Assembly (NCBI RefSeq): GCF_024380015.1
Contig: NZ_CP101509.1
Span: 1,488,001 to 1,552,000, forward strand
Reading direction: 5' to 3'
Length of the DNA: 64,000 nucleotides
DNA from: Photobacterium atrarenae
GTDB lineage: Bacteria > Pseudomonadota > Gammaproteobacteria > Enterobacterales > Vibrionaceae
In this document: piece after piece, positions 29,495-44,127 of the stretch
Position numbering within the stretch: position 1 is the stretch's first letter
Layout of the letters: each line of letters begins with the position of its first letter
Position numbers and translations under genes: made by a program
The notes under the pieces: generated by a model
Databases searched by the model: none
What the model was told of the DNA's origin: nothing
The model's input: the letters and a program-made list of their open reading frames with translations, nothing else

Positions 29495-30508
29495 TTAGCC
29501 TTTCTTCGCCTTGAACGCGGCTAAGTTCTCTTGGGTGATCAGCTCTGCCGGGATCCAGGTGATTTTGTCGAATGGCTTTTGTTCGACGGCGTTGATGGCC
29601 GCATCAATGGCGCCGCGGGCCTGACCGCCACCATCCTGAAATACCGTTGCATCCAGCGTCCCGTTTTCAACGGCCATCAGCCCATCCGGTGTCGCATCAA
29701 TTCCCACCACCAGGGTGTCTTTCAGTTTGCCGGCAGCCTGTAGCGCCTGAATTGCTCCCAGGGCCATGTCGTCATTGTTTGACAGGATCACATCCAGCTT
29801 GTCGCCGGCGTTGAGCCAGTTTTCGGTGACTGACATGCCCAGTGCTCGCTGCCACTGGCCGGTTTGCTTACGGGTGACGCTGAAAGCGGCATCCTGGGCA
29901 AAGAATTCTTCGATCCCTTCGGTGCGCATCAGGGAAGCTTCCTGGGTCAGCATCCCCATCAGGATGCCGATATTAGCGCTGTCCATTGTGTCTTTGACGT
30001 ACTGGGCCTGGGTTTCACCGAATTTCTTTTCATCCGAGCCGACATAGTAAACCCCGTCAGGCAGGTAAGAAGGGCGACGGTTGACATAAACCAGCTGGAT
30101 ACCCGCCTTGGTCACGCGGTCGGTCATCGGCTGAGTGGCGTCGGTATTTACCGGCACCACCACAATGGCGTCCATCTGTTGGACAATAAAGTTCTCGACC
30201 TGACCCAGTTGCTTGGCCGTATCTTCCTTGGCATCGACGATGGTGAGTTCGACTTTGCCGTTCAGGGTTGCAGCATAGTCGTTCATGGCATCTTTCATGT
30301 AGACGATAAAGGTGTCATCAAAGTTGGGGATCGCAACGCCAATGCGAATGGTATCGTCCTGCACTTTTTCTTCGCCGCACCCGGTCAGGGCCACTAAGGC
30401 GCTGAGACACAAGGCAGCCCCGATCCCTTTTGCGGGCTGGCGGATCCAGTGTTTCAACGTTTTGAGAAGCCCGGTCGGGCGGGTGTTTTTCCATAAAGCA
30501 GATAGCAT
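29495..30508 (-). CDS. ibpA: Periplasmic inositol/sugar-binding lipoprotein (RbsB/IbpA-like)
   Basis: A 337-residue family 1 periplasmic binding protein. An unusually long N-terminal leader precedes a membrane segment and lipobox L-T-G-C (cysteine near residue 44), so it is probably a lipoprotein; a start at a later codon would shorten the leader, but AAGGAGG before this ATG supports it. The binding fold shows I-R-I-G-V-A-I-P-N-F-D, D-A-I-V-V-V-P-V-N-T-D and L-S-N-N-D-D-M-A-L-G-A. First gene of the ABC operon; an iol-type site lies about 150 bp upstream. Confidence 0.87.
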   Translation of the reverse strand: MLSALWKNTRPTGLLKTLKHWIRQPAKGIGAALCLSALVALTGCGEEKVQDDTIRIGVAIPNFDDTFIVYMKDAMNDYAATLNGKVELTIVDAKEDTAKQLGQVENFIVQQMDAIVVVPVNTDATQPMTDRVTKAGIQLVYVNRRPSYLPDGVYYVGSDEKKFGETQAQYVKDTMDSANIGILMGMLTQEASLMRTEGIEEFFAQDAAFSVTRKQTGQWQRALGMSVTENWLNAGDKLDVILSNNDDMALGAIQALQAAGKLKDTLVVGIDATPDGLMAVENGTLDATVFQDGGGQARGAIDAAINAVEQKPFDKITWIPAELITQENLAAFKAKKG

Positions 30509-31143: not shown

Positions 31144-32655
31144 ATGGAAACAATTCAGAACTTCATCAACGGTCGGATCAGCGAAAGTCATAGCCAGCGT
31201 TTTGCTCCGGTTTTTAATCCGGCGACAGGTGAGCAGACCCGCCAGGTGGTCCTGAGTTCTGCACAAGAAACGGCCGAAGCCATTGCTGCGGCTGATCAGG
31301 CCTTTGCAGCGTGGGCGAAAACTTCGCCGCTGAAGCGTGCCCGGATCATGTTCAAATTCAAGGCGCTGCTGGAAGCAAATACAGATCGGCTGGCCCGTAT
31401 CATCTCCAACGAGCATGGCAAAGTGTATTCCGATGCCGTGGGTGAACTGACCCGTGGCCTGGAAGTGGTTGAGTTTGCCTGTGGGATCCCGCATCTGCAA
31501 AAAGGGGAGCATTCTGCCAATGTCGGTACCGGCGTCGACAGCCACTCGCTGATGCAGCCATTAGGGGTTTGTGCGGGGATCACTCCATTTAACTTCCCGG
31601 CGATGGTACCGATGTGGATGTTCCCAATCGCGCTGGCAACCGGCAATACCTTTGTGCTGAAACCTTCGGAAAAAGATCCGTCGCTGGGCATGGCGTTGGC
31701 GGAATTGCTGCAGGAGGCCGGTCTGCCGGATGGCGTCTTCAACGTGGTGAATGGCGATAAAGAAGCGGTCGACGTGCTGCTGACCGATGCGCGTGTACAG
31801 GCGGTCAGTTTTGTCGGCTCGACGCCGATTGCGGAATACATTTACAGCACGGCTTCTGCCCATGGCAAGCGTTGCCAGGCGCTGGGTGGGGCAAAAAACC
31901 ATTGTATCCTGATGCCGGATGCGGATCTGGATATGGCGGCGAATGCTATCATGGGCGCTGCTTTCGGGGCTGCCGGTGAGCGTTGCATGGCGTTGTCTGT
32001 TGCGGTTGCCGTCGGTGATGAAACCGCAGACAAGCTGGTGGCGAAACTACGTGGTCACATTGATGCGATGCGTGTCGGGCCGGGGATCGTGGACGGTCCG
32101 GAAAACGACATGGGGCCGGTGATCTCCGAGCAGCACAAAGCCAAGATTTGTGACTATATTGCCTCGGGCGTCGAGCAGGGAGCTAGCCTGCTGGTCGATG
32201 GTCGCGATCTGTCGGTTGCAGGTTATGAGCAGGGCTATTTTGTCGGTCCGACCCTGTTCGATAATGTCTCTCCGGAAATGACCATTTACCAGGAAGAAAT
32301 TTTTGGCCCGGTGCTGGCGGTGGTGCGGGTGCCGGATTACCAGACGGCGCTTGAACTGATTAATCGCCATGAGTACGGCAACGGGACTGCGATCTTTACC
32401 CGCGATGGTGAAACGGCACGTCAGTTCAGTGAAGACGTGTGGGCCGGTATGGTTGGGCTCAATGTGCCAATTCCGGTCCCGATGGCGTTCCACAGCTTCG
32501 GTGGTTGGAAGCGTTCGGTCTTTGGCCCGCTCAATGTTCACGGTAACGACGGCGTGCGTTTCTATACCCGAATGAAAACGGTCACCAGCCGCTGGCCGGC
32601 CAGTGTTCGTCTGGAGCAGCACGCCAGCGCGTTTACCATGCCAACCATGGATTAA
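31144..32655 (+). CDS. iolA: Methylmalonate/malonate semialdehyde dehydrogenase (CoA-acylating)
   Basis: Final step of the inositol pathway, malonate semialdehyde to acetyl-CoA and CO2, also serving valine catabolism. The 503-residue aldehyde dehydrogenase has the family hallmarks F-N-F-P-A-M-V-P near 145, catalytic cysteine in G-E-R-C-M-A-L-S near residue 283, and the acylating-type L-G-G-A-K-N-H in place of the general-base E-L-G-G. AGGAG precedes the start. Monocistronic with a strong terminator. Confidence 0.94.
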   Translation: METIQNFINGRISESHSQRFAPVFNPATGEQTRQVVLSSAQETAEAIAAADQAFAAWAKTSPLKRARIMFKFKALLEANTDRLARIISNEHGKVYSDAVGELTRGLEVVEFACGIPHLQKGEHSANVGTGVDSHSLMQPLGVCAGITPFNFPAMVPMWMFPIALATGNTFVLKPSEKDPSLGMALAELLQEAGLPDGVFNVVNGDKEAVDVLLTDARVQAVSFVGSTPIAEYIYSTASAHGKRCQALGGAKNHCILMPDADLDMAANAIMGAAFGAAGERCMALSVAVAVGDETADKLVAKLRGHIDAMRVGPGIVDGPENDMGPVISEQHKAKICDYIASGVEQGASLLVDGRDLSVAGYEQGYFVGPTLFDNVSPEMTIYQEEIFGPVLAVVRVPDYQTALELINRHEYGNGTAIFTRDGETARQFSEDVWAGMVGLNVPIPVPMAFHSFGGWKRSVFGPLNVHGNDGVRFYTRMKTVTSRWPASVRLEQHASAFTMPTMD

Positions 32656-33946: not shown

Positions 33947-34663
33947 TCAGGCGCGTAGGAAGTCGAGGATCCAGCCGGTGACGCGTTCGCTGTCGACCGG
34001 TTTTGCCAGCGAAGTCAGGCCGTCGTCGAGGACCTGAGGCGGCAGCAGGTGCTGGCGAAAGTGCATCAGATCTTTCGAGTAGGCTTTGCTGAACTCCGGG
34101 TGGCCCTGAATCCCGAGCAGGTGCTGCCCGACCTGGATCATCGCATTCGGGCAGAAAGTACTGCCGGCAAGCACCTGGGTTTGTTCCGGCAGTTTGACCA
34201 CCTGATCCTGATGACTAACGACCAGCGACAGGGTTTCCGGGACGGTGGTCCCTTCATTGAGCCAGCCCGGTGTTTGCCGCATTTCATGCGTTGCGACGCC
34301 AACGCCCCAGCCCTGAGGGGCCTGGATCACTTCACCGCCCAACGCCTTGGCAATCAGCTGGTGGCCAAAGCAGATCCCGACCAGCTTTTTCTGCTGCTGA
34401 TGCAGCTGGCGAATGAAGCCCAGCAAATCACCAATCCACGGATACGGGTCGTTGACACTGTGGCGGCTACCGGTGGTCATGTAGACATCACACTCATCCA
34501 CATCCTGTGGCAATTCCCCGTCCAGCGCCCGGTAGAAGACCAGCTCAAGCGTGTTATCCTGTTGGTGCAATAGCGCCTCAAACATCGCAGGATAGTTATC
34601 ATGTTGCGGTTGCAGCTCAGTTGTGACGTCGTCACATTGTAAGATTCCGATCTTCACGTCCAT
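33947..34663 (-). CDS. Class I glutamine amidotransferase, probable gamma-glutamyl amide hydrolase
   Basis: A 238-residue free-standing GATase1 protein with an intact triad: nucleophile G-I-C-F-G-H-Q near residue 97, and G-H-P-E-F near 187. No synthetase domain is attached. It starts 5 nt after the Fe-alcohol dehydrogenase stop and ends a minus-strand series with an aldehyde dehydrogenase and PuuA-like ligase. By analogy with PuuD and with IpuF of isopropylamine catabolism, it probably releases glutamate from a gamma-glutamylated product. It is not PuuD itself (PuuD is a peptidase C26-type member). The role is inferred from context. Confidence 0.75.
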   Translation of the reverse strand: MDVKIGILQCDDVTTELQPQHDNYPAMFEALLHQQDNTLELVFYRALDGELPQDVDECDVYMTTGSRHSVNDPYPWIGDLLGFIRQLHQQQKKLVGICFGHQLIAKALGGEVIQAPQGWGVGVATHEMRQTPGWLNEGTTVPETLSLVVSHQDQVVKLPEQTQVLAGSTFCPNAMIQVGQHLLGIQGHPEFSKAYSKDLMHFRQHLLPPQVLDDGLTSLAKPVDSERVTGWILDFLRA

Positions 34664-34668
34664 TTCTC

Positions 34669-35838
34669 CTAAGAATCATTGAGTCGTCCCATGACAGCAT
34701 CGGTAAAGATGCGGCTGTACTCGGCGGCTGAAAATTGGATCGGGTTACCGCCTGCGGAAGGATCGGCCACGGCCATTTCACCCACACGTTTGGCTTCTTC
34801 GATGGTGATATCGATCTCCGCCAGGGTATGCGGGATCTTCAGCTCGGCGCGTAGGTCGAGGATCCACGTCATAAAGGCATCAAAGCCCGGGTTGTCTAAA
34901 TTCAGGTAGCGGGCCAGATTGGTGATTTTGTCCTCAATCACACTGCGGTTGGCCTCGAGCACATAAGGCATCAGAATGGCGTTCAACAGACCGTGGTGCT
35001 TGTTGTACAGGGCGCCCAGCGTGTGGGCGATGGCGTGCATCCCGCCCAAGCCGCGTTGGAAGGCAGTGGCACCCATGCTGGAAGCGACCAGCATCTGGGT
35101 GCGCGCCTCCAGATTATCGCCATGAGTGACGGCGATTGGCAGGTAATCTTTAATCAGGCGGATCCCTTCAAGGGCGATCCCTTCGGCCATCGGGTGATAG
35201 CTGGTGGCACAGAAGGCTTCGAGGTTATGCGACAGGGCATCCATCCCGGTGGCGGCGGTTATATGGGGCGGCAAGCCGGTAGTCACCTGCGGGTCGAGCA
35301 ACACTTTCACTGGCAGCATCTTCGGGTGGAAGATGATCTTTTTGACATGGTTCTGGGTGTCGGTGATCACCGAAGCACGACCGACTTCAGAGCCGGTGCC
35401 GGCCGTGGTCGGGATGGCGATGACCGGCGCGATCCCGGCTTCATCGGCCTGCAGCCAGTTATCACCGACATCTTCAAACGCCCACAACGGAAGGGACTGA
35501 CCAGCCATCAGGGCGATCGCTTTGGCGGCATCCAGACTGGAGCCGCCGCCAAAAGCGATGACCCCGTCAAAGCCACCCTGACGGTAGACTTGCAGACCAT
35601 CTTCGACGTTTTCGCCAGTCGGGTTACCCTGAACCCGGCTGAAAATCTCGCATCCAACTCCGGCGTCATGGCACAGTGAGACGGTGTTAGCCACCATTGG
35701 TAGCTCGGCCAGCCCCGGATCGGTCACCAGCAGGGCTTTGGTGATCCCGGCTTGCTGACAGGCTTGACCGATTTGGTTCAGGCTGTTTTCGCCCACGGAC
35801 ATGGCGGTCGGATAGTTCCAGTTTCCTTGCAATTGCAT
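34669..35838 (-). CDS. Iron-containing alcohol dehydrogenase
   Basis: A 389-residue group III (Fe-ADH) dehydrogenase. NAD-binding G-G-G-S-S-L-D-A-A-K near residue 98, T-T-A-G-T-G-S-E near 144, metal ligands in D-A-L-S-H-N-L-E-A and G-G-M-H-A-I-A-H-T-L-G-A...H-H-G. It sits between the aldehyde dehydrogenase and the amidotransferase in the minus-strand cluster. The likely role is oxidation of the hydroxyl group of a gamma-glutamylated amino alcohol (for example gamma-glutamylethanolamide) to the aldehyde; an ordinary alcohol substrate is the alternative. Confidence 0.85.
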   Translation of the reverse strand: MQLQGNWNYPTAMSVGENSLNQIGQACQQAGITKALLVTDPGLAELPMVANTVSLCHDAGVGCEIFSRVQGNPTGENVEDGLQVYRQGGFDGVIAFGGGSSLDAAKAIALMAGQSLPLWAFEDVGDNWLQADEAGIAPVIAIPTTAGTGSEVGRASVITDTQNHVKKIIFHPKMLPVKVLLDPQVTTGLPPHITAATGMDALSHNLEAFCATSYHPMAEGIALEGIRLIKDYLPIAVTHGDNLEARTQMLVASSMGATAFQRGLGGMHAIAHTLGALYNKHHGLLNAILMPYVLEANRSVIEDKITNLARYLNLDNPGFDAFMTWILDLRAELKIPHTLAEIDITIEEAKRVGEMAVADPSAGGNPIQFSAAEYSRIFTDAVMGRLNDS

Positions 35839-35949
35839 GAGGCTCTCCTTGTCGCCGCGCCGACACCGGGTCAGCGCAGCGGTTTGTTCTATGATCGTGT
35901 GTTGCTGTCGTTTGCTTTAGTTGTTTGATGCTTCCAAAAGCGATCGTGA

Positions 35950-37338
35950 TTAAAGCTGCTTGATATGGAATGACTTTGGCCGGGTAAAGGCATCGAAGCC
36001 GAGTTGCGACAGGGTGCAGCCGCGGCCGGATTGTTTCACCCCGGTCCAGGCCAGTGCCGGATCCAAGTAGTCACACCGGTTGATAAAGAAGGTGCCGGTT
36101 TCCAGCTGCTCACCCAGGGCGACCCCGGTCGGGATGTCGTTGGTAAAGATGCTGGCGGTGAGGCCAAAGTCACTGTCGTTCATCAAATCAATCGCCAGCG
36201 CATCACTGTCGACTCTCATGATCCCGACCACCGGGCCGAATGATTCTTCATTCATCACCCGCATGCTGTGATCCACGTTGGTCAGCACCTGTGGTGCCAG
36301 ATACGGCGTACCGGACTCACTGGCCGGGAAATGGGCTTCATCGATGTGAGCAATTGCGCCCTGAGCCACCGCGTCCTGGATCTGGCCACGAACGAAATCG
36401 GCCGCGCCAGTTCGAACCACAGGGCCCAGCGTGGTGTCCGGATCGTCCGGGCGTCCCAGTTGGTACTGATTCACAAGCGCCACGGCTTTATCGACAAATG
36501 CATCATAGATACTGTGGTGGACGTAAATCCGCTCAATGCCGCAACAGGACTGACCGGCGTTAAAGAATGCGCCGTCAATGGTGGTTTCGACCGCGACATC
36601 CAGATCGGCATCTTCACGCACGTAGGCCGGATCTTTGCCGCCCAGCTCCAGCCCGACGCCGATAAAGCGACCCGCTGCAGCGCGCTCGACATGGGCGCCG
36701 CCCTGAACCGAGCCGGTGAAGGCCACGTAATTGACATCATCGGACTGAATGATGGATTGGGTGTCATCATGGCTGAGATGCAGGTACTGGAATACACCGT
36801 CCGGTAATCCCGCGGCTTTGAACGCTTCAACGAAGCGCTCGGCACACAGCGGCGTTTGCGCTGAATGCTTCAGCACCACACTGTTGCCCGCCAGCAGTGC
36901 CGGAACGATGGCATTGACTGCGGTAAGATACGGGTAGTTCCAGGGGGCGATAACGAAGGCTACGCCGACCGGCTCACGTTTGATGTAGCGGGTGAAGCCG
37001 GGTTTTTCCGGCAGCGTCAGCGGTGCAAGGGCCTGGTCGCTGGCTTCAATCATATAGCGGGCCCGTTCGGCCAGGCCGCCGACTTCACCGGCGGTATAGC
37101 GGATCGGGCGACCCATTTGCCAGGTCAGCTCCTGGCCGATTTCATCTTTATGGGCCTCAAACCAGTCGACAGCTTTGCTGCAAATCGCCTGACGCTCGGT
37201 GAGGGCGGTGGCCGCCCAGCTTTTTTGTGCGCGCTGGGCATTGTCCAGCGTGCGCTGAATTTCAGGTTGGGTCGCCAGCTCACGGCTGACATACACGCTG
37301 CCGTCCACCGGCGAGACTGTGTGTTGCATGGTTGTCAT
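35950..37338 (-). CDS. NAD(P)-dependent aldehyde dehydrogenase of the gamma-glutamylation cluster
   Basis: A 462-residue aldehyde dehydrogenase with W-N-Y-P near residue 126, E-L-G-G-K-D-P near 228, and catalytic cysteine in N-A-G-Q-S-C-C-G near 263. Start chosen at MTTMQHTVSP, with AAGGA 8 nt upstream and 11 nt after the ligase stop; the longer frame would overlap the ligase. Relatives serve succinate semialdehyde and gamma-glutamyl-aminoaldehyde oxidation. Here it would convert the aldehyde made by the Fe-ADH to the carboxylate. Confidence 0.85.
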   Translation of the reverse strand: MTTMQHTVSPVDGSVYVSRELATQPEIQRTLDNAQRAQKSWAATALTERQAICSKAVDWFEAHKDEIGQELTWQMGRPIRYTAGEVGGLAERARYMIEASDQALAPLTLPEKPGFTRYIKREPVGVAFVIAPWNYPYLTAVNAIVPALLAGNSVVLKHSAQTPLCAERFVEAFKAAGLPDGVFQYLHLSHDDTQSIIQSDDVNYVAFTGSVQGGAHVERAAAGRFIGVGLELGGKDPAYVREDADLDVAVETTIDGAFFNAGQSCCGIERIYVHHSIYDAFVDKAVALVNQYQLGRPDDPDTTLGPVVRTGAADFVRGQIQDAVAQGAIAHIDEAHFPASESGTPYLAPQVLTNVDHSMRVMNEESFGPVVGIMRVDSDALAIDLMNDSDFGLTASIFTNDIPTGVALGEQLETGTFFINRCDYLDPALAWTGVKQSGRGCTLSQLGFDAFTRPKSFHIKQL

Positions 37339-37349
37339 GATGCGCATCC

Positions 37350-38717
37350 TTAAATGATTTCGAAGTAACGGTCCATTTCCCAATCGGTGACATGCTTTCT
37401 GAATTCGCGCTCTTCCCACTCCCGGCTGGCGGCGAAGTGATCAACGAACTCATCGCCGAACATGGTCCGGGCGGCCTCGGATTGCTTGAAGCGTTGCGCG
37501 GCTTCCCACAGTGTCCGTGGCAATTCTAATTCTGGCGCATGTTGCTGATCATAGGCATTGCCGATCACCTGCTCGCCCGGCTCCCACTCCTGCATGATGC
37601 CGTACAGACCGGAGGCGAGTGCGGCGGCCAGCGACAGATACGGGTTGGCATCGGCAGCGCCGAGGCGGTGCTCGATCCGTTGGGACTTTTCTGAGCCTGG
37701 GATCACGCGCAGGGCGGTGGTGCGGTTCTCAATCCCCCAGGTGGCATGGGTTGGTGCCCAGAAGCCGGGGATCATCCGGGTGTAGCTGTTGATGGTTGGC
37801 GCGATCAGGCACAGGAACTCCGGCATCAGGCGTTGCTGCCCGGCCAGGAAGTGGCGCTGCAGTTTACTCATGGTGTTGGGCTGCGTGCTGTCATAAAACG
37901 CTGAAGAACCGTCTTTGTTTTTCAGCGACACGTGGATATGACCACTCTGGCCCGGATAGTCGCCGGACCATTTGGCCATGAAGGTGGCCATTAAATCGCG
38001 TTTCTGCGCCAGGATCTTCATGAAGGTTTTAAACAGGGCGGCTTTGTCAGCGGCTGAGGCGGCGCTGTCGACGGCCAGCGCGGCTTCGAGCACACCGGGG
38101 CCGGTTTCGGAGTGGATCCCTTCAATCGGGAAGTCCATTTGCTCGGCCATGCCCAGAATGGCCTGATAGAGATCAGAATGGACGGAGTTGCGGATCATCG
38201 AGTAGCCGAACCAGTCCGGGGTGATTGGTTGCAGGTTACGGAAACCTTTTTCACGCGCCGAATGCGGGGTTTCATTGAACATGAAGAATTCATATTCCAG
38301 CGCTGCAAAGGCTTCAAAGCCCATGCCGTCCGCTTTTTCCAGGATGCGGTTCAGGGCGCCACGCGGGCAGACCTTGGCGGCTTCGCCGTCAAATTCGGCG
38401 ATAAACAGCAACATGCCGTCTTCTTCAAACACCTCGCGGCAAGTGTGCGGCAGAATGCGTACCGGGGCATCCGGATAGCCGGTATGCCAACCGGTGTACT
38501 GGGTATTGTCGTATAGCTGATCTTTGGAATCCCACCCTAAAACAACGTCACAAAATGCGAACCCGTTTTCCAGGGAAGAGAAGAACTTGGCCTTCGACAT
38601 GTACTTGCCGCGCATGATCCCGTCGTTATCAAAGATCCCGACTTTAATATGGGTCAGTTGGCGCTCTTCCACAATTGCCATCGCATCCGCGATTGTCTTT
38701 ACGTCTCTTGGTTCCAT
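37350..38717 (-). CDS. Glutamine synthetase-like gamma-glutamyl amine ligase (PuuA/GlnA4/IpuC type)
   Basis: A 455-residue member of the glutamine synthetase superfamily, with E-Y-E-F-F-M-F near residue 140, G-Q-S-G-H-I-H-V-S near 255, N-S-Y-T-R near 306, and the R-I-E-H-R-L-G-A-A-D-A-N-P-Y segment near 348. No adenylylation-site region is obvious, as expected for PuuA-type enzymes rather than GlnA. It would use ATP to attach glutamate to an amine. With an ethanolamine-type permease upstream, rather than PuuP, the amine is more likely ethanolamine or a related amino alcohol than putrescine; that is inference. Confidence 0.85.
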   Translation of the reverse strand: MEPRDVKTIADAMAIVEERQLTHIKVGIFDNDGIMRGKYMSKAKFFSSLENGFAFCDVVLGWDSKDQLYDNTQYTGWHTGYPDAPVRILPHTCREVFEEDGMLLFIAEFDGEAAKVCPRGALNRILEKADGMGFEAFAALEYEFFMFNETPHSAREKGFRNLQPITPDWFGYSMIRNSVHSDLYQAILGMAEQMDFPIEGIHSETGPGVLEAALAVDSAASAADKAALFKTFMKILAQKRDLMATFMAKWSGDYPGQSGHIHVSLKNKDGSSAFYDSTQPNTMSKLQRHFLAGQQRLMPEFLCLIAPTINSYTRMIPGFWAPTHATWGIENRTTALRVIPGSEKSQRIEHRLGAADANPYLSLAAALASGLYGIMQEWEPGEQVIGNAYDQQHAPELELPRTLWEAAQRFKQSEAARTMFGDEFVDHFAASREWEEREFRKHVTDWEMDRYFEII

Positions 38718-38770
38718 GTGTACCTCTATCGTTCTGAGGGCTCGTTCCTGAGCCGGTGTGACTGTTGGTG

Positions 38771-38821
38771 AAGGCGCGCTCGCGGAAGCTTTCTGGGTTC
38801 GGCTTCCATGCGCCGCGCCTT
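38771..38821 (-). other. Nested hairpin between permease and ligase genes
   Basis: Outer arms AAGGCGCG/CGCGCCTT and inner arms GGAAGC/GCTTCC form one extended structure in the 127-bp gap. No T-run, so attenuation, mRNA stabilisation or a repeat remnant are all possible. Confidence 0.4.
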
Positions 38822-38844
38822 ATTTAATGTTGTGTTGTTCTGGC

Positions 38845-40278
38845 TTAGCTCAGCTCTGATTCCGCGTTGGCAATCAGGTCAAACTCTTCTTCCGGCGCAT
38901 TGGCCACGATGCGGTGGCGGCTGTAGAGCAGGAAGTAGGTCAGCATGACGACATAGAACAGGGCCGACCACAGCGCGGCCTGGGTGCTGACTACGAAGGT
39001 CGATGCCAGGGCAATTAGTGACAGTACCAGCGCAATGCCTGAAGTCAGGGTACCGCCCGGCGTTTTGTACGGACGCGCCAGTTGTGGCTCTTTGCGGCGC
39101 AGAATGATGTGCGACAGGCTCATCAGCGCGTAAGAAACCGTGGCACCGAAGACGGCCATGGTGATCATCAGATCGCCTTCGCCGGTCAGCGAGAGCAGAA
39201 AGCCAAGGATCCCCGGGACAATCAGTGCCCAAACCGGTACCTTGCGCTCACCTGACAGCGATAGGAAGCGGGGCAGGTAGCCGGCACGGGACAGGGCAAA
39301 CACCTGACGCGAGTAGGCGTAGATGATGGAGAAGAAACTGGCGATCAGACCAAACAGGCCGACGATATTGACAAACTTAGCGGCCAGCGAATCGGCACCG
39401 TAGACAAACTGCAGGGCACCCACCAGCGGTGCACTGTGTGATTTCATCGCTTCGGCACCTGCGCCACCCGGCACCAGGAACAGGACTGCGGCGGCGAAGA
39501 TCAGTAGGATGACCATCGAAGCAATGATGCCGCGTGGCATGTCCTTCGCCGGGTTGCTCGCTTCTTCAGCTGCCAGTGGCACCCCTTCCACGGCCAGGAA
39601 CAGCCACATAGCAAATGGCAGCGCAGCCCAGATCCCGACATACCCTTCAGGCAGGAAGGCGCTGGCACCGGCGACATCCGGGTTTGCTGGGATGGTGAAA
39701 AGGTTATTGACATCAAAATGCGGCAACATCCCCAGGACAAACACGACAATCGCAATGACGGCGAGTACGGTAATCCCCATCATAATGCGCAGCGCTTCTC
39801 CGGCACCCCAGAGGTGGATCCCGACGAAGACGCAGTAAAACCCGGCATACACCACAGGGCCGTCAATGCCGATCAGCTCGTTGACGTAACCACCGATGAA
39901 TATGGCAATGGCGGCAGGCGCAATGGCGTATTCCAGCAGGATCGCGGTGCCGGTGAGGAAGCCACCCAGCGGGCCCAGGGCACGGCGGGCAAAACTGTAA
40001 CCACCTCCGGCGGTCGGGATGGAGGATGACATTTCAGCCAGGCTCAGCACCAGGCACATATACATCAGGCCCATGATGATGGTGGCTAACAGCATGCCCC
40101 CAAAACCTGCGCGCTCCAGACCAAAATTCCAGCCGGCGAAATCACCGGAAATCACATATGAGACGCCGAGGCTGGCGAGAAGGACCCAGCCGGCCACGCC
40201 TTTTTTTAACTGACGCTTACTCAGATAGTCGTCAGAAACTGCTTCACTTTCGACTGCTCGGTTATTGCTGTTAGACAT
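38845..40278 (-). CDS. Ethanolamine-type APC permease
   Basis: A 477-residue amino acid-polyamine-organocation permease with about 12 hydrophobic segments. The N-terminal L-S-K-R-Q-L-K-K-G-V-A-G-W-V-L-L and V-S-Y-V-I-S-G-D-F-A-G-W-N-F-G-L are characteristic of the ethanolamine permease subfamily. It is the first gene of the set running to the amidotransferase. No eutBC ethanolamine lyase genes are in the window, so imported ethanolamine would need another route, which the downstream ligase-dehydrogenase series could supply. Choline or other amino alcohols are alternative substrates. Confidence 0.82.
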   Translation of the reverse strand: MSNSNNRAVESEAVSDDYLSKRQLKKGVAGWVLLASLGVSYVISGDFAGWNFGLERAGFGGMLLATIIMGLMYMCLVLSLAEMSSSIPTAGGGYSFARRALGPLGGFLTGTAILLEYAIAPAAIAIFIGGYVNELIGIDGPVVYAGFYCVFVGIHLWGAGEALRIMMGITVLAVIAIVVFVLGMLPHFDVNNLFTIPANPDVAGASAFLPEGYVGIWAALPFAMWLFLAVEGVPLAAEEASNPAKDMPRGIIASMVILLIFAAAVLFLVPGGAGAEAMKSHSAPLVGALQFVYGADSLAAKFVNIVGLFGLIASFFSIIYAYSRQVFALSRAGYLPRFLSLSGERKVPVWALIVPGILGFLLSLTGEGDLMITMAVFGATVSYALMSLSHIILRRKEPQLARPYKTPGGTLTSGIALVLSLIALASTFVVSTQAALWSALFYVVMLTYFLLYSRHRIVANAPEEEFDLIANAESELS

Positions 40279-40465
40279 AACATTTCCTTATGAACGGTGA
40301 ATGGAGTCAATCGCACTTCGTGTTACAAGTTCTTAACATAAGGGCGGCTGTCTATTGACTGCAACAACAATTAGTTACGCTAACAATGCGCTATTAATTT
40401 TCTTAATAGTTGTCAGCAGAAGTGCCCGGAGTGCGGTACGTCAACACTTTTGCTTGGGAAAGGAT

Positions 40466-41422
40466 CTAGCCGACAGACAGCTCTTTTTCCAACCAGGGCA
40501 GCTCGCGCAGGACCCCCGGCAGGAATTTTTCGGTCATGATCTGGCGGCTGTCTCCGGCAAGGATCTGAGGGAGTTTACCCAGCTCGTTGGGGCGGCTGAC
40601 CAGGGTCAGATTACGGTGCAGGGGCTCATCGGCAGGGAGCGGGAGGCAGGTCAGCTTGTCGCGGGTTAAACCGCTCTGAAACAGGCAGAGCGGGGTGGTG
40701 ATAGTCCAGCCTAAACCGGCGGCGACACTGGAGAGCACGGCAAAAGTATTATCCAGTTGCATGTGTGAAGGGGCATTGACGTCCAGCCGCCGCAGGTAGC
40801 GCTCAATGGTCGTGCCGATGAGGGAATCGCTGGTATAACGGACAAAATCAAGCTCACGCAGCAGATGATGGAACGAAGGATAGGATTTGGCATATTGGCT
40901 GGGGACCACCAGCACGAAGGGCTCACGCAGGATCCGGTGGCGGCTGAGCGAAGCATGATCTTCCAGGGCGTCATCGGAAATAATGATGTCTACGTGCCGA
41001 GTGAGTAGCGCCTGGGCATGCATGTGGGAGCGCCCGGTACTGATGGTCCAGCTTTCGGTATGCCGTTTGATGACTTCGACCAGCGGTTGGCCCAGCGAGG
41101 TGGCCAGGGAGTCGACCATGGCGACACGTAGCAGGTGGAGCTTCTGAAAATCCCCTTTCGACATCACCTGATGGGTTTTTTCGGCCTGCGACAGTAAGTG
41201 GCATGATTGATCGTAAAAATAACGGCCGGCCACGGTGAGTTCCATCGGGCGGATACTGCGATCGAGCAGCGCAACATTGAGGTTGTTTTCGAGGGCGGAA
41301 ATAGTTTGCGAGACTGAAGACTGGGTGAGTCTGAGCTGGTTCGCGGCCAGCGTCATATTGCCGGCTTGGGCGGTGGTGACAAAGACCTCCAACGCCCTGA
41401 GATCGAATCCGAATCCTTTCAA
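40466..41422 (-). CDS. LysR-family transcriptional regulator of the permease/ligase cluster
   Basis: A 318-residue LTTR with N-terminal winged helix-turn-helix (L-R-A-L-E-V-F-V-T-T-A-Q-A-G-N-M-T-L-A-A-N-Q-L-R-L-T-Q-S-S-V at residues ~7-36 read as separate short motifs) and a C-terminal effector domain. It lies 187 bp upstream of and in the same direction as the permease gene, with no terminator between. Probable regulator of the downstream cluster; the inducer is unknown. Confidence 0.82.
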   Translation of the reverse strand: MKGFGFDLRALEVFVTTAQAGNMTLAANQLRLTQSSVSQTISALENNLNVALLDRSIRPMELTVAGRYFYDQSCHLLSQAEKTHQVMSKGDFQKLHLLRVAMVDSLATSLGQPLVEVIKRHTESWTISTGRSHMHAQALLTRHVDIIISDDALEDHASLSRHRILREPFVLVVPSQYAKSYPSFHHLLRELDFVRYTSDSLIGTTIERYLRRLDVNAPSHMQLDNTFAVLSSVAAGLGWTITTPLCLFQSGLTRDKLTCLPLPADEPLHRNLTLVSRPNELGKLPQILAGDSRQIMTEKFLPGVLRELPWLEKELSVG

Positions 41423-41814
41423 GATAGTTTTCCTGTATTGCGGATGTTCTTTCCCTGAACATCTTGGTTCAATAACTCAACGATGCCAATTGAGTGAATA
41501 CTTTAGACTAATCCCTTCTGCGCATGAGCGCAATTCATGAATTTGAACTTTTGCCATAAACTCATTCACTTATAACCGGAGCGGCAGGATTAGAAAATGG
41601 GGGCTCACTGTCAATCTGTTCGAATTGCCTCCGAATGATGATTTCTTGACGTGCGCACCATGGGAATCATACTTTTTATACATTAGGTCTGTTCTTGCAT
41701 CTTACATATCGAACCGCGAGTGAGCCGTGGTGCTGGTGGCCTTGATCCGCCATACCTTGATATCCAGCCGACCCAGCGGGTCATGCTTCCCATCGTACAG
41801 CAAAGGTGAAATCA
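41423..41814. other. Divergent promoter region lysR/ydeP-like
   Basis: No gene, repeat or recognisable operator was seen in these 392 bp; they must contain the promoters of the two divergent genes. Confidence 0.4.
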
Positions 41815-44127
41815 ATGAGCTTTAAGGAATATTCAGGATCGGCCGGTGGCTGGGGCGCATTGAAAAGCACGGCAGAGCATTTGTTTAAAAGTAAAAATGT
41901 CGCCCAAAATATCTCAAACCTGTTGCGAACCAATCAGGATCACGGATTTGACTGCCCGGGCTGTGCCTGGGGGGAGAAAGGTGTGCCGGGCCGGTTCCGG
42001 TTTTGTGAGAATGGTGCGAAAGCGGTTAACTGGGAGGCGACCACCCGGCGGGTCGGCCGGGACTTTTTCAGCCAATACACCGTTTCATGGCTCAACAAAC
42101 AAAGCAGCTATTATCTCGAATATCAGGGGCGGCTGGCAGAGCCGGTGCGCTACAACGCTGCCACCGATCATTACGAGCCGATCCGCTGGGATGATGCCTT
42201 TAACCTGATCGCCCGGCACCTCAATGCGCTGGAAGATCCCAACCAGGCCGAATTCTACACCTCGGGGCGGACCAGCAATGAAGCGGCCTTTTTATACCAG
42301 CTGTTCGGCCGCCGATTCGGAACCAATAACTTCCCGGATTGTTCCAACATGTGCCATGAGTCTACCAGCCATGCCCTGGCTCAATCGATTGGGATTGGTA
42401 AAGGGACCGTCACCATGGATGATTTTGAGCACGCCGATGCCATTTTCTTGTTTGGCCAAAACCCGGGGACCAACCACCCGCGGATGTTGGAAACACTGAG
42501 CGAGGCGTATCGACGGGGGGCGCGGGTCGTTGCCTTTAATAACCTGAAAGAAAGGGGACTGGAGCGCTTTACCAATCCGCAGGATCCGGGTGAAATGCTG
42601 AGCAATGGGTCGACCCGGACCACCAGCGATTACTATACGCCCAAGCTCGGCGGGGATATGGCTGCCGTGCGCGGTATGGTGAAGGTACTGGCGGCGCGGC
42701 ATCAGGCGGCACTTGAAAAGGGAGAGTCGGTGTTCGATCAAGCCTTCATTGCCGAGCAGACCGAGGGGCTGGATGATTATCTGGCAGAAGTCGATGCGAC
42801 CAACTGGGCGCAGATCACCGAACAGTCCGGCCTCAGTCGGGAGCAGATTGAACAGGCGGCGACGATATATCAGGCCGCCGACCGGGTGATTGTCACCTGG
42901 GCAATGGGGATCACCCAGCACAAGCACTCGGTCGCAATGATTCAGGAACTGGTGAATCTGCAACTGTTGTGCGGACACATCGGCAAGCCGGGCGCGGGTC
43001 TGTGTCCGGTGCGCGGTCACTCGAATGTTCAGGGCGATCGCACCGTCGGGATCAACGATAAGCCGCCGAAATACCTGCTGGATAAGCTTGAGGCAGTCTT
43101 TGGTTTTACCCCGCCACAAGTACCTGGTCACAACGTAGTGCATGCTATTCAGGCCATGCGGCGGGGAGAGAGCAAAGTGTTTATAGGTCTTGGCGGGAAT
43201 CTGGTGGCGGCAGCGCCGGATACCCAGCAGGTAGCGAAAGCCATGCGCCAGTGTGACCTGACGGTGAATATCGCCACTAAGCTTAATCGAAGCCATGTCA
43301 ACCCGGGCAAAGATGCCCTGATCCTGCCGTGTCTCGGCCGTACGGATATTGATCCGCAGGCCAGTGGCCCGCAGCGGGTGACAGTAGAAGATTCTTTTTC
43401 TATGGTTCATGCCTCGTCCGGCCGGGTAGATATGAGCGATGAGCAGATGCGTTCTGAACCGGCGATTGTCGCTGGCATCGCTAAAGCGACTCTGGGCGCG
43501 CTGAACCCGGTCGACTGGCAAAGTCTGGCGGATAACTACGACCGAATTCGCGATTTGATCGCACAGGTGATCCCGGGTTTTGACAATTTCAATCAGCGTC
43601 TGGATGCTCCGGGCGGGTTTTATCTCGGTAACTCAGCACGGGAGCTGAACTGGCAGACAGCAAACGGCAAGGCAAACTTCCGCACTAATGTGCTGCCAGC
43701 TTCGGTGATCCCATTTGATCCCCGGGCCTTGACGAAAAAGCCGGTATTCATTTTGCAGAGCATGCGTGCGAACGATCAATACAACACCACAGTGTACGGG
43801 TTTGATGATCGCTATCGCGGAATCCATGGCGAACGTGAGGTGGTGTTTCTCAATCCGGCAGATATCGAAGCGCAGGGGCTGCAAGCCGGAGATCGAATCG
43901 ATATTGAAACGCTGTGGACCGATGATGTGAAGCGCCAGGTCATCGGCTTTAAGGTTGTTCCCTACCTGATCCCCAAGGGCAATATTGCTGCCTATTTTCC
44001 GGAGTCCAATGCGTTAGTGCCGCTCAGCAGTACCGGCGATATTAGTGATACACCGACTTCCAAGTCGATTGCGGTGGTGATCCGCCCGTCCACCCTGAGC
44101 CCGCCGCTGGCGACTACGGTTGACTAA
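41815..44127 (+). CDS. ydeP: FdhF/YdeP-family molybdopterin oxidoreductase
   Basis: A 770-residue bis-MGD oxidoreductase. The N-terminus has C-P-G-C-A-W near residue 44 rather than a full 4Fe-4S C-x2-C-x3-C-x(n)-C motif, typical of the YdeP group. S-G-R-T-S-N-E-A-A-F and D-C-S-N-M-C-H-E-S near 170-185 follow (Cys as candidate Mo ligand region), and a C-terminal molydopterin dinucleotide-binding domain. No signal peptide, so it is cytoplasmic. E. coli YdeP is linked to acid resistance, but the reaction is unknown. ATG at 41815 was preferred over a GTG 9 nt upstream. Stand-alone gene with its own terminator; no partner subunit nearby. Confidence 0.85.
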   Translation: MSFKEYSGSAGGWGALKSTAEHLFKSKNVAQNISNLLRTNQDHGFDCPGCAWGEKGVPGRFRFCENGAKAVNWEATTRRVGRDFFSQYTVSWLNKQSSYYLEYQGRLAEPVRYNAATDHYEPIRWDDAFNLIARHLNALEDPNQAEFYTSGRTSNEAAFLYQLFGRRFGTNNFPDCSNMCHESTSHALAQSIGIGKGTVTMDDFEHADAIFLFGQNPGTNHPRMLETLSEAYRRGARVVAFNNLKERGLERFTNPQDPGEMLSNGSTRTTSDYYTPKLGGDMAAVRGMVKVLAARHQAALEKGESVFDQAFIAEQTEGLDDYLAEVDATNWAQITEQSGLSREQIEQAATIYQAADRVIVTWAMGITQHKHSVAMIQELVNLQLLCGHIGKPGAGLCPVRGHSNVQGDRTVGINDKPPKYLLDKLEAVFGFTPPQVPGHNVVHAIQAMRRGESKVFIGLGGNLVAAAPDTQQVAKAMRQCDLTVNIATKLNRSHVNPGKDALILPCLGRTDIDPQASGPQRVTVEDSFSMVHASSGRVDMSDEQMRSEPAIVAGIAKATLGALNPVDWQSLADNYDRIRDLIAQVIPGFDNFNQRLDAPGGFYLGNSARELNWQTANGKANFRTNVLPASVIPFDPRALTKKPVFILQSMRANDQYNTTVYGFDDRYRGIHGEREVVFLNPADIEAQGLQAGDRIDIETLWTDDVKRQVIGFKVVPYLIPKGNIAAYFPESNALVPLSSTGDISDTPTSKSIAVVIRPSTLSPPLATTVD

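Follow-up and report, generated by a model that had tools for sequence, protein, structure and literature searches.

A cluster of six genes, all on the minus strand between positions 33947 and 41422 of a 64,000-nucleotide stretch of Photobacterium atrarenae DNA (contig NZ_CP101509.1; hereafter the window), very probably takes up ethanolamine and yields glycine by glutamate tagging, as judged from sequence. The genes encode, in this order, a LysR-type regulator, a permease, a glutamine-synthetase-like ligase, an aldehyde dehydrogenase (ALDH), an iron-containing alcohol dehydrogenase (FeADH) and a class I amidotransferase. Gene set, place, common direction and Pfam families are as stated in an earlier reading of the letters (the original prediction). 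The locus may be regarded with considerable confidence as a variant of the Chromohalobacter salexigens and Phaeobacter pathway, in which ethanolamine is catabolised through glutamylated intermediates. That pathway is already published, and its ligase step is also known from Streptomyces. Within the known pathway, the apparently new part is an exchange of the two end enzymes, ligase and hydrolase, around a common pair of dehydrogenases: ALDH and FeADH share clades with those of clusters linked to the binding protein of PDB entry 4uab, while ligase and hydrolase belong to other branches. Two solved structures represent the C. salexigens cluster in the sequence comparison: 5dm3, which we take to be Csal_0679, and 4uab, presumably Csal_0678 with bound ethanolamine. 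Ligases akin to 5dm3 are called described-type, those akin to the ligase in the window window-type.

Predicted pathway and its enzymes

The substrate and every reaction of the pathway are deduced from what was observed, namely genes, gene order, conservation, kinship and motif residues. The permease would bring ethanolamine into the cell, and the ligase, with ATP, would couple the amino group of ethanolamine to the gamma-carboxyl group of glutamate. The FeADH would oxidise the alcohol to the aldehyde and the ALDH the aldehyde to the acid, giving gamma-glutamylglycine, which the amidotransferase would split into glycine and recycled glutamate. Ethanolamine, ATP, 2 NAD and water would thus yield glycine, ADP, Pi and 2 NADH (waters and protons unbalanced). 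The glutamyl tag would keep the amine inside the cell, and a free amino-aldehyde would be avoided. The original prediction had the same succession of uptake, glutamylation, oxidation of alcohol to aldehyde to acid and release, which matches a published ethanolamine pathway, and on grounds of homology and gene context it is supported. It cited IpuC/IpuF and GlnA4 but not the C. salexigens/Phaeobacter route, and had therefore no means of noticing that the first and last enzymes come from other branches than there. As far as gene order tells, a glutamine-synthetase-like ligase, an ALDH and a PF00465 dehydrogenase lie in one putative operon.

The ligase (37350..38717, minus strand; PF00120, 325 bits) is by residues and trees a probable ethanolamine gamma-glutamylase, on a branch distinct from that of 5dm3. 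It stays below the cut-off in each of its four NCBIfam matches, among them those to glutamine synthetases GlnA (TIGR00653; 211 bits, cut-off 429) and GS III (193, cut-off 470). Matches to the gamma-glutamylputrescine synthetase model (PuuA, NF045547; 187, cut-off 650) and to PRK09469 (98, cut-off 845) are sub-threshold too. The ligase is 30% identical to 5dm3, 31% to Escherichia coli PuuA and 39% to the annotated IpuC of Paenarthrobacter aurescens TC1, the closest ligase found with an annotated amine substrate. Metal- and ATP-binding residues of glutamine synthetase are retained, as are the glutamate residues, except for N264, replaced by P. The flap residue E327 is W in window-type ligases and IpuC, and F in 5dm3 and seven described-type ligases. 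Residue roles were drawn from section 12 of PMC6529630 and from general knowledge; the position of D50, surrounded by many gaps, was left out of account. An ordinary glutamine synthetase is disfavoured by the TIGR00653 score and the W at E327; another PF00120 protein of the genome (C1:3313873) scores much higher, 470 bits.

A second window-type ligase, 76% identical to the first, resides in the same genome (C2:218563-219927; L032:9564-10931), and the surrounding 19.9 kb gave no match to ALDH, FeADH or amidotransferase. Similar flanks enclose the full set of ligase, ALDH, FeADH and amidotransferase in P. alginatilyticum (L046), and the set devoid of FeADH in P. ganghwense (L062). Because of these syntenic flanks around complete or near-complete sets, the second copy is probably a stripped resident ligase, standing beside the complete cluster in the window.

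The ALDH (35950..37338, minus strand; PF00171, 434 bits with the frame read from 37344), probably oxidising gamma-glutamyl-aminoacetaldehyde, is below the cut-off of the 25 models listed of 46 matched; against the PuuC model it reaches 250 bits (cut-off 850). The FeADH (34669..35838, minus strand; PF00465, 172 bits), which probably acts on gamma-glutamylethanolamide, and the amidotransferase (33947..34663, minus strand; PF00117, 55 bits), a probable gamma-glutamylglycine hydrolase, are each below the cut-offs of all 17 curated models matched. Residues C267, E233 and N136 are found in the ALDH (numbering from 37344), C98, H188 and E190 in the amidotransferase, and D200, H204, H268 and H282 of the FeADH fit the metal site; the roles of the former two sets, and the metal-site motif behind the third, are as we assume them. 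The best solved relative of the amidotransferase is gamma-glutamyl peptidase 1 (92 bits).

Conservation of the gene set

Genomes of named species were scanned with an alignment of 13 ligases, and at least 583 relatives were found; the best 80 loci are referred to as named loci. Partners were counted as single-linkage protein families (60% overlap, any orientation), some loci ending at contig ends. ALDH lies near the ligase in 72 of the best 80 named loci and FeADH in 70, with 66 having the two together; an amidotransferase is found in 48, and 46 hold all four enzymes. Amino acid-polyamine-organocation (APC) permeases were found in 19, LysR regulators of the same protein family in 17, and window-like sets of six genes in 13. 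Ligases devoid of all three enzyme partners are confined to 3 of the 80 loci (L054, L069, L077). When 12 further loci are added, one being that of the second ligase of P. atrarenae, the figures are, out of 92, ALDH 83, FeADH 81, both 77, amidotransferase 57, all four enzymes 55, APC permease 25, LysR 24 and the six-gene set 17; L037 and L085, both counted, are apparently the same contig. The grouping of the ligase with its partners is not due to chance, and the check on conservation proposed with the original prediction came out in its favour. In the nearest named record returned, Photobacterium ganghwense, the ligase is 92% identical, and all six genes are present (L044). The locus L036 (G167) holds a four-enzyme cluster, preceded on the opposite strand by genes which by eye resemble those of urea/branched-chain ABC transporters.

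In a sample of the order, the ligase was detected at E <= 1e-100 in 27 of 295 genomes, and in a sample of the class window-type ligases were found at E <= 1e-130 in 22 of 369 genomes (P. atrarenae included in both), described-type ligases at E <= 1e-120 in 14. None of the 369 carries both types; chance alone predicts about 0.8 such genomes, and mutual exclusion is not claimed. In two of the 22 genomes (G481, G598) the ligase is only 47-49% identical, and ALDH was not seen within the 1.5 kb read.

Substrate

The permease (38845..40278, minus strand), probably an ethanolamine importer of the APC type, exceeds the cut-off of the curated ethanolamine permease model TIGR00908 (545 bits, cut-off 382). 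Among 27 genomes searched, three EutB loci were found and read; homologues of the permease (61-63% identical) lie about 1 kb from EutB in two (L222, L223), none in the third (L224). The genomes hosting L222 and L223 (G027, G131) also carry a window-type ligase, and probably hold both ethanolamine routes. Permeases in other ligase loci vary: those in L037 and L063 are well over the TIGR00908 cut-off (546 and 548 bits), those in L042 and L109, 39% identical to the permease in the window, just under it (367 and 371).

In 18 of the 80 named loci a binding protein of the tripartite ATP-independent periplasmic (TRAP) type, 67-75% identical to 4uab, is encoded less than 8 kb from the ligase. ALDH and FeADH are found in all 18, amidotransferase in 9; in L077 there is a match of only 21%. 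The TRAP protein in L057 reaches 563 bits with 4uab/4xf5, the next solved structure 73. Csal_0678 binds ethanolamine, according to PMC4646407 and PMC10132767, and the latter reports that the Phaeobacter homologue, EtoX, has a Kd for ethanolamine of 7.9 uM, and that growth on phosphorylethanolamine raises the levels of proteins from its operon. Either transporter is present in 36 of the 80 named loci, and neither in the stretch covered of the remainder. In Litchfieldella anticariensis (L098) both a TRAP ethanolamine-type binding protein and an APC permease reside in one cluster. The original prediction named ethanolamine or a related amino alcohol; of these, ethanolamine itself is the preferred candidate, because of the TRAP binding proteins in loci of relatives, the permease homologues near eutB, the TIGR00908 match, and the clades that ALDH and FeADH share with the enzymes of 4uab-linked described-type clusters.

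The same chemistry could serve mainly another amino alcohol (alaninol, 1-amino-2-propanol, 3-aminopropanol), leading to alanine or another amino acid. The ligase is nearer to IpuC, an enzyme of the isopropylamine/alaninol pathway, than to 5dm3, shares with IpuC the W of the flap, and in the ligase tree IpuC falls on the side of the window-type rows (97/82), on a long branch. This alternative is made quite unlikely by binding protein and permease, which point to ethanolamine, and by the plasmid locus of ipuC, which features a P450, a short-chain dehydrogenase and an amidotransferase, with no FeADH match.

A Puu-type pathway acting on putrescine or another diamine might explain the sub-threshold matches of ligase and ALDH to the PuuA and PuuC models. 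It is disfavoured by these very scores and by the 31% identity to PuuA, and appears most improbable: no PuuB-like oxidase is found among the six genes, as the original prediction had remarked, FeADH recurs near the ligase at the frequency given above, and PuuC lies across a 100/100 branch of the ALDH tree.

The wider ligase branch probably serves other amines as well, because plasmid-borne relatives adjoin transporters of the polyamine type or aminotransferases, or lack a neighbouring FeADH. Distant relatives (52-53% identical) in L219:4059-9705 (a Rhizobium leguminosarum plasmid), L138 and L220 are flanked by a GMC oxidoreductase, or by an aminotransferase and a polyamine-type ABC transporter, with no annotated FeADH alongside; they likely act on other amines.

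Several observations weigh against assigning ethanolamine degradation to the locus. No TRAP gene is found in the window, and the substrate is deduced from permease and relatives. The more distant plasmid ligases lie beside spermidine/putrescine-type ABC transporters and aminotransferases (L138, L220), and the plasmid locus L137, with a ligase 58% identical, carries no FeADH. The curated model closest to the FeADH is 4-hydroxybutyrate dehydrogenase (327 bits, cut-off 500). Thirty-four of the 80 named loci are short of one or more of the four enzymes nearby, 32 of these of the amidotransferase, contig ends and real losses being pooled in these figures. One locus linked to 4uab, L149, shows no ALDH. 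A PF05013 match, the family of the published gamma-glutamylglycine amidohydrolase, is found elsewhere in the P. atrarenae genome, with 56.5 bits and as part of a frame of 666 residues (C2:1433752). A literature search gave no assay of the window-type branch; Gerlt 2016 and Vetting 2015, known through citing papers only, may mention it.

Kinship of the enzymes

The binding protein was searched in the class sample, and found at E <= 1e-90 in 12 of the 369 genomes. Described-type ligases, 44-75% identical to 5dm3, reside in eight of the 12 loci (L142, L145-L149, L151, L152; L148 is cut by a contig end), a window-type ligase in one (L150); three (L143, L144, L153) have no ligase in the stretch read. 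In the latter genomes a described-type ligase is located on other contigs, present in the genome and not adjacent; in L143 the frame between binding protein and ALDH encodes TRAP DctM. All 12 genomes carry a ligase of either type (nine a described-type and one a window-type ligase by genome search, G645 and G448 by reading of the locus). ALDHs in these loci are 55-66% and FeADHs 46-61% identical to those in the window, where present. Conversely, the binding protein is found in only one (G634) of the 22 genomes with a window-type ligase.

The ALDH tree (51 rows) included 30 chosen window-type loci, seven described-type loci and 12 of 20 further ALDH matches in the P. atrarenae genome; rows with less than 45% identity or 70% coverage were left out, here as in the FeADH tree. 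A 100/100 branch separates 37 cluster ALDHs of both types from 14 others, made up of the 12 other P. atrarenae ALDHs, one plasmid ALDH and PuuC. Window- and described-type rows are intermixed, and a single clade for six described-type rows is rejected (p-AU 0.0016). In the FeADH tree (43 rows), 35 rows from clusters and one from a plasmid are split from seven others, five from P. atrarenae (95/90); cluster types are again intermixed, most inner branches being weak and the bootstrap unsettled. ALDH and FeADH of the window each fall in one clade with those of the 4uab-linked clusters, apart from other family members.

The ligases behave differently. Forty window-type and eight described-type rows form separate clades (100/99), three unlabelled rows joining the latter. 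The union of both types with these three, set against IpuC, PuuA, GlnA and three plasmid ligases, is rejected (p-AU 0.0009; 33 rows in all), the groups having been named after the first ligase tree was seen and long branches being present. The ligase in the window falls outside the clade of 5dm3. The exchange of ligases could be only apparent, both types deriving from one fast-diverging pathway ligase; IpuC and the plasmid rows are on long branches able to distort the tree, and the naming of the groups after the fact adds to this concern. Such an origin seems unlikely, since a joint clade of ligase types is rejected, whereas ALDHs from both kinds of cluster intermix.

Hydrolases also vary. PF05013 genes are found about 3 kb or less from the binding protein in five of six described-type genomes checked (none in G550; G645 and G448 are outside the sample), and had no match in the 92 window-type loci in a search with two good queries; the cluster in the window has none either. 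Class I amidotransferases reside in 57 of these 92 loci, and in one of eight described-type loci (L152). The split is not clean: PF05013 matches occur elsewhere in genomes with window-type ligases, in frames of more than 660 residues in G000, G182 and G023 (56-72 bits), and with 243 and 248 bits in G059 and G039, and in L138 a PF05013-type gene adjoins the distantly related ligase.

The exchange of end enzymes around one ALDH/FeADH pair can be extended, with fair probability, to a modular picture: the pair would work with two ligase branches and two hydrolase families, the glutamine synthetase superfamily would have given rise to ethanolamine ligases on more than one occasion, and a large ligase branch, with members in marine Gammaproteobacteria, Pseudomonas, Halomonas, Legionella, Desulfobulbaceae and others, would consist of ethanolamine gamma-glutamylases. 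A testable function is hereby offered for a branch that none of the curated models matched here covers. A major bacterial lipid has ethanolamine as its head group. If ethanolamine use is surveyed by counting the TRAP gene or ligases of the described type, much of the window-type version would be overlooked, because of the relative numbers of the two types in the class sample and the rarity of the TRAP protein among window-type genomes; the dehydrogenase pair may mark the pathway more reliably than its first enzyme does.

Organization of the locus

The LysR-type gene (40466..41422, minus strand; HTH_1 and LysR_substrate domains) probably encodes a local regulator; its start is TTG as listed, and the exact start is uncertain. 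It is separated from the permease gene by 187 bases (40279..40465, minus strand), the probable place of operator and promoter; no promoter-like site was found in this interval by consensus scan, and promoter and terminator scans gave no more sites than shuffled sequence. Permease and ligase genes are 127 bases apart. The ALDH start, ATG at 37338, is 11 bases past the ligase stop, an alternative in-frame ATG at 37347 being possible. ALDH and FeADH genes are spaced by 111 bases, FeADH and amidotransferase genes by 5. The host genome measures 5.4 Mb. In agreement with the original prediction, EutB is absent: a search of the entire genome with PF06751 gave nothing at E <= 0.001 (no genome-wide search was made for EutC and microcompartment genes).

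Next to the amidotransferase side, a CoA-acylating methylmalonate-semialdehyde dehydrogenase is encoded at 31144-32655 (694 bits, cut-off 448.5), near a protein which by eye is sugar-binding-like (29495-30508); this region is probably a separate sugar or inositol locus. Past the LysR gene, a large protein resembling by eye molybdopterin oxidoreductases is encoded on the plus strand (41806-44127).

Comparison with known systems

In Phaeobacter sp. MED193 and C. salexigens, the operon for ethanolamine gamma-glutamylation encodes EtoVWX, ETAGA, GAADDH, GETADH and GGAH, as described in PMC10132767, and its locus tags run ligase, ALDH, dehydrogenase (PMC10132767, PMC9397018). The cluster in the window has the same order of these three genes, the same proposed chemistry, and ALDH and FeADH in the clades of 4uab-linked clusters. 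It differs in the ligase, as in the hydrolase, a class I amidotransferase in place of the PF05013 protein, and features an APC permease and a LysR regulator where the described operon has TRAP and RpiR proteins.

In Streptomyces coelicolor, GlnA4 is required for growth on ethanolamine and its activity has been shown; for Streptomyces clusters the legend to Fig. 2 mentions dehydrogenases, a glutamine amidotransferase and a putative transporter for ethanolamine (PMC6529630). In contrast to the cluster in the window, a short-chain dehydrogenase is named there in the GlnA4 cluster (SCO1610-SCO1615), and the flap residue of GlnA4, according to section 12 of the same paper, is F instead of W.

The Ipu pathway of isopropylamine breakdown shares with the window a related ligase, IpuC, represented here by that of P. 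aurescens TC1, and an amidotransferase is postulated in this pathway to cleave the glutamyl bond. According to PMC6776027, it uses a P450 and frees alaninol ahead of alcohol oxidation; neither P450 nor ferredoxin genes, which make up the Ipu operon context, are found among the six genes. The logic of the predicted pathway, to glutamylate, oxidise and hydrolyse, is that of the E. coli Puu pathway, which differs in its diamine substrate, the PuuB oxidase and the ligase. The EutBC/microcompartment pathway has the same probable substrate, and a related permease lies near eutB in two relatives, but P. atrarenae makes do without EutB.

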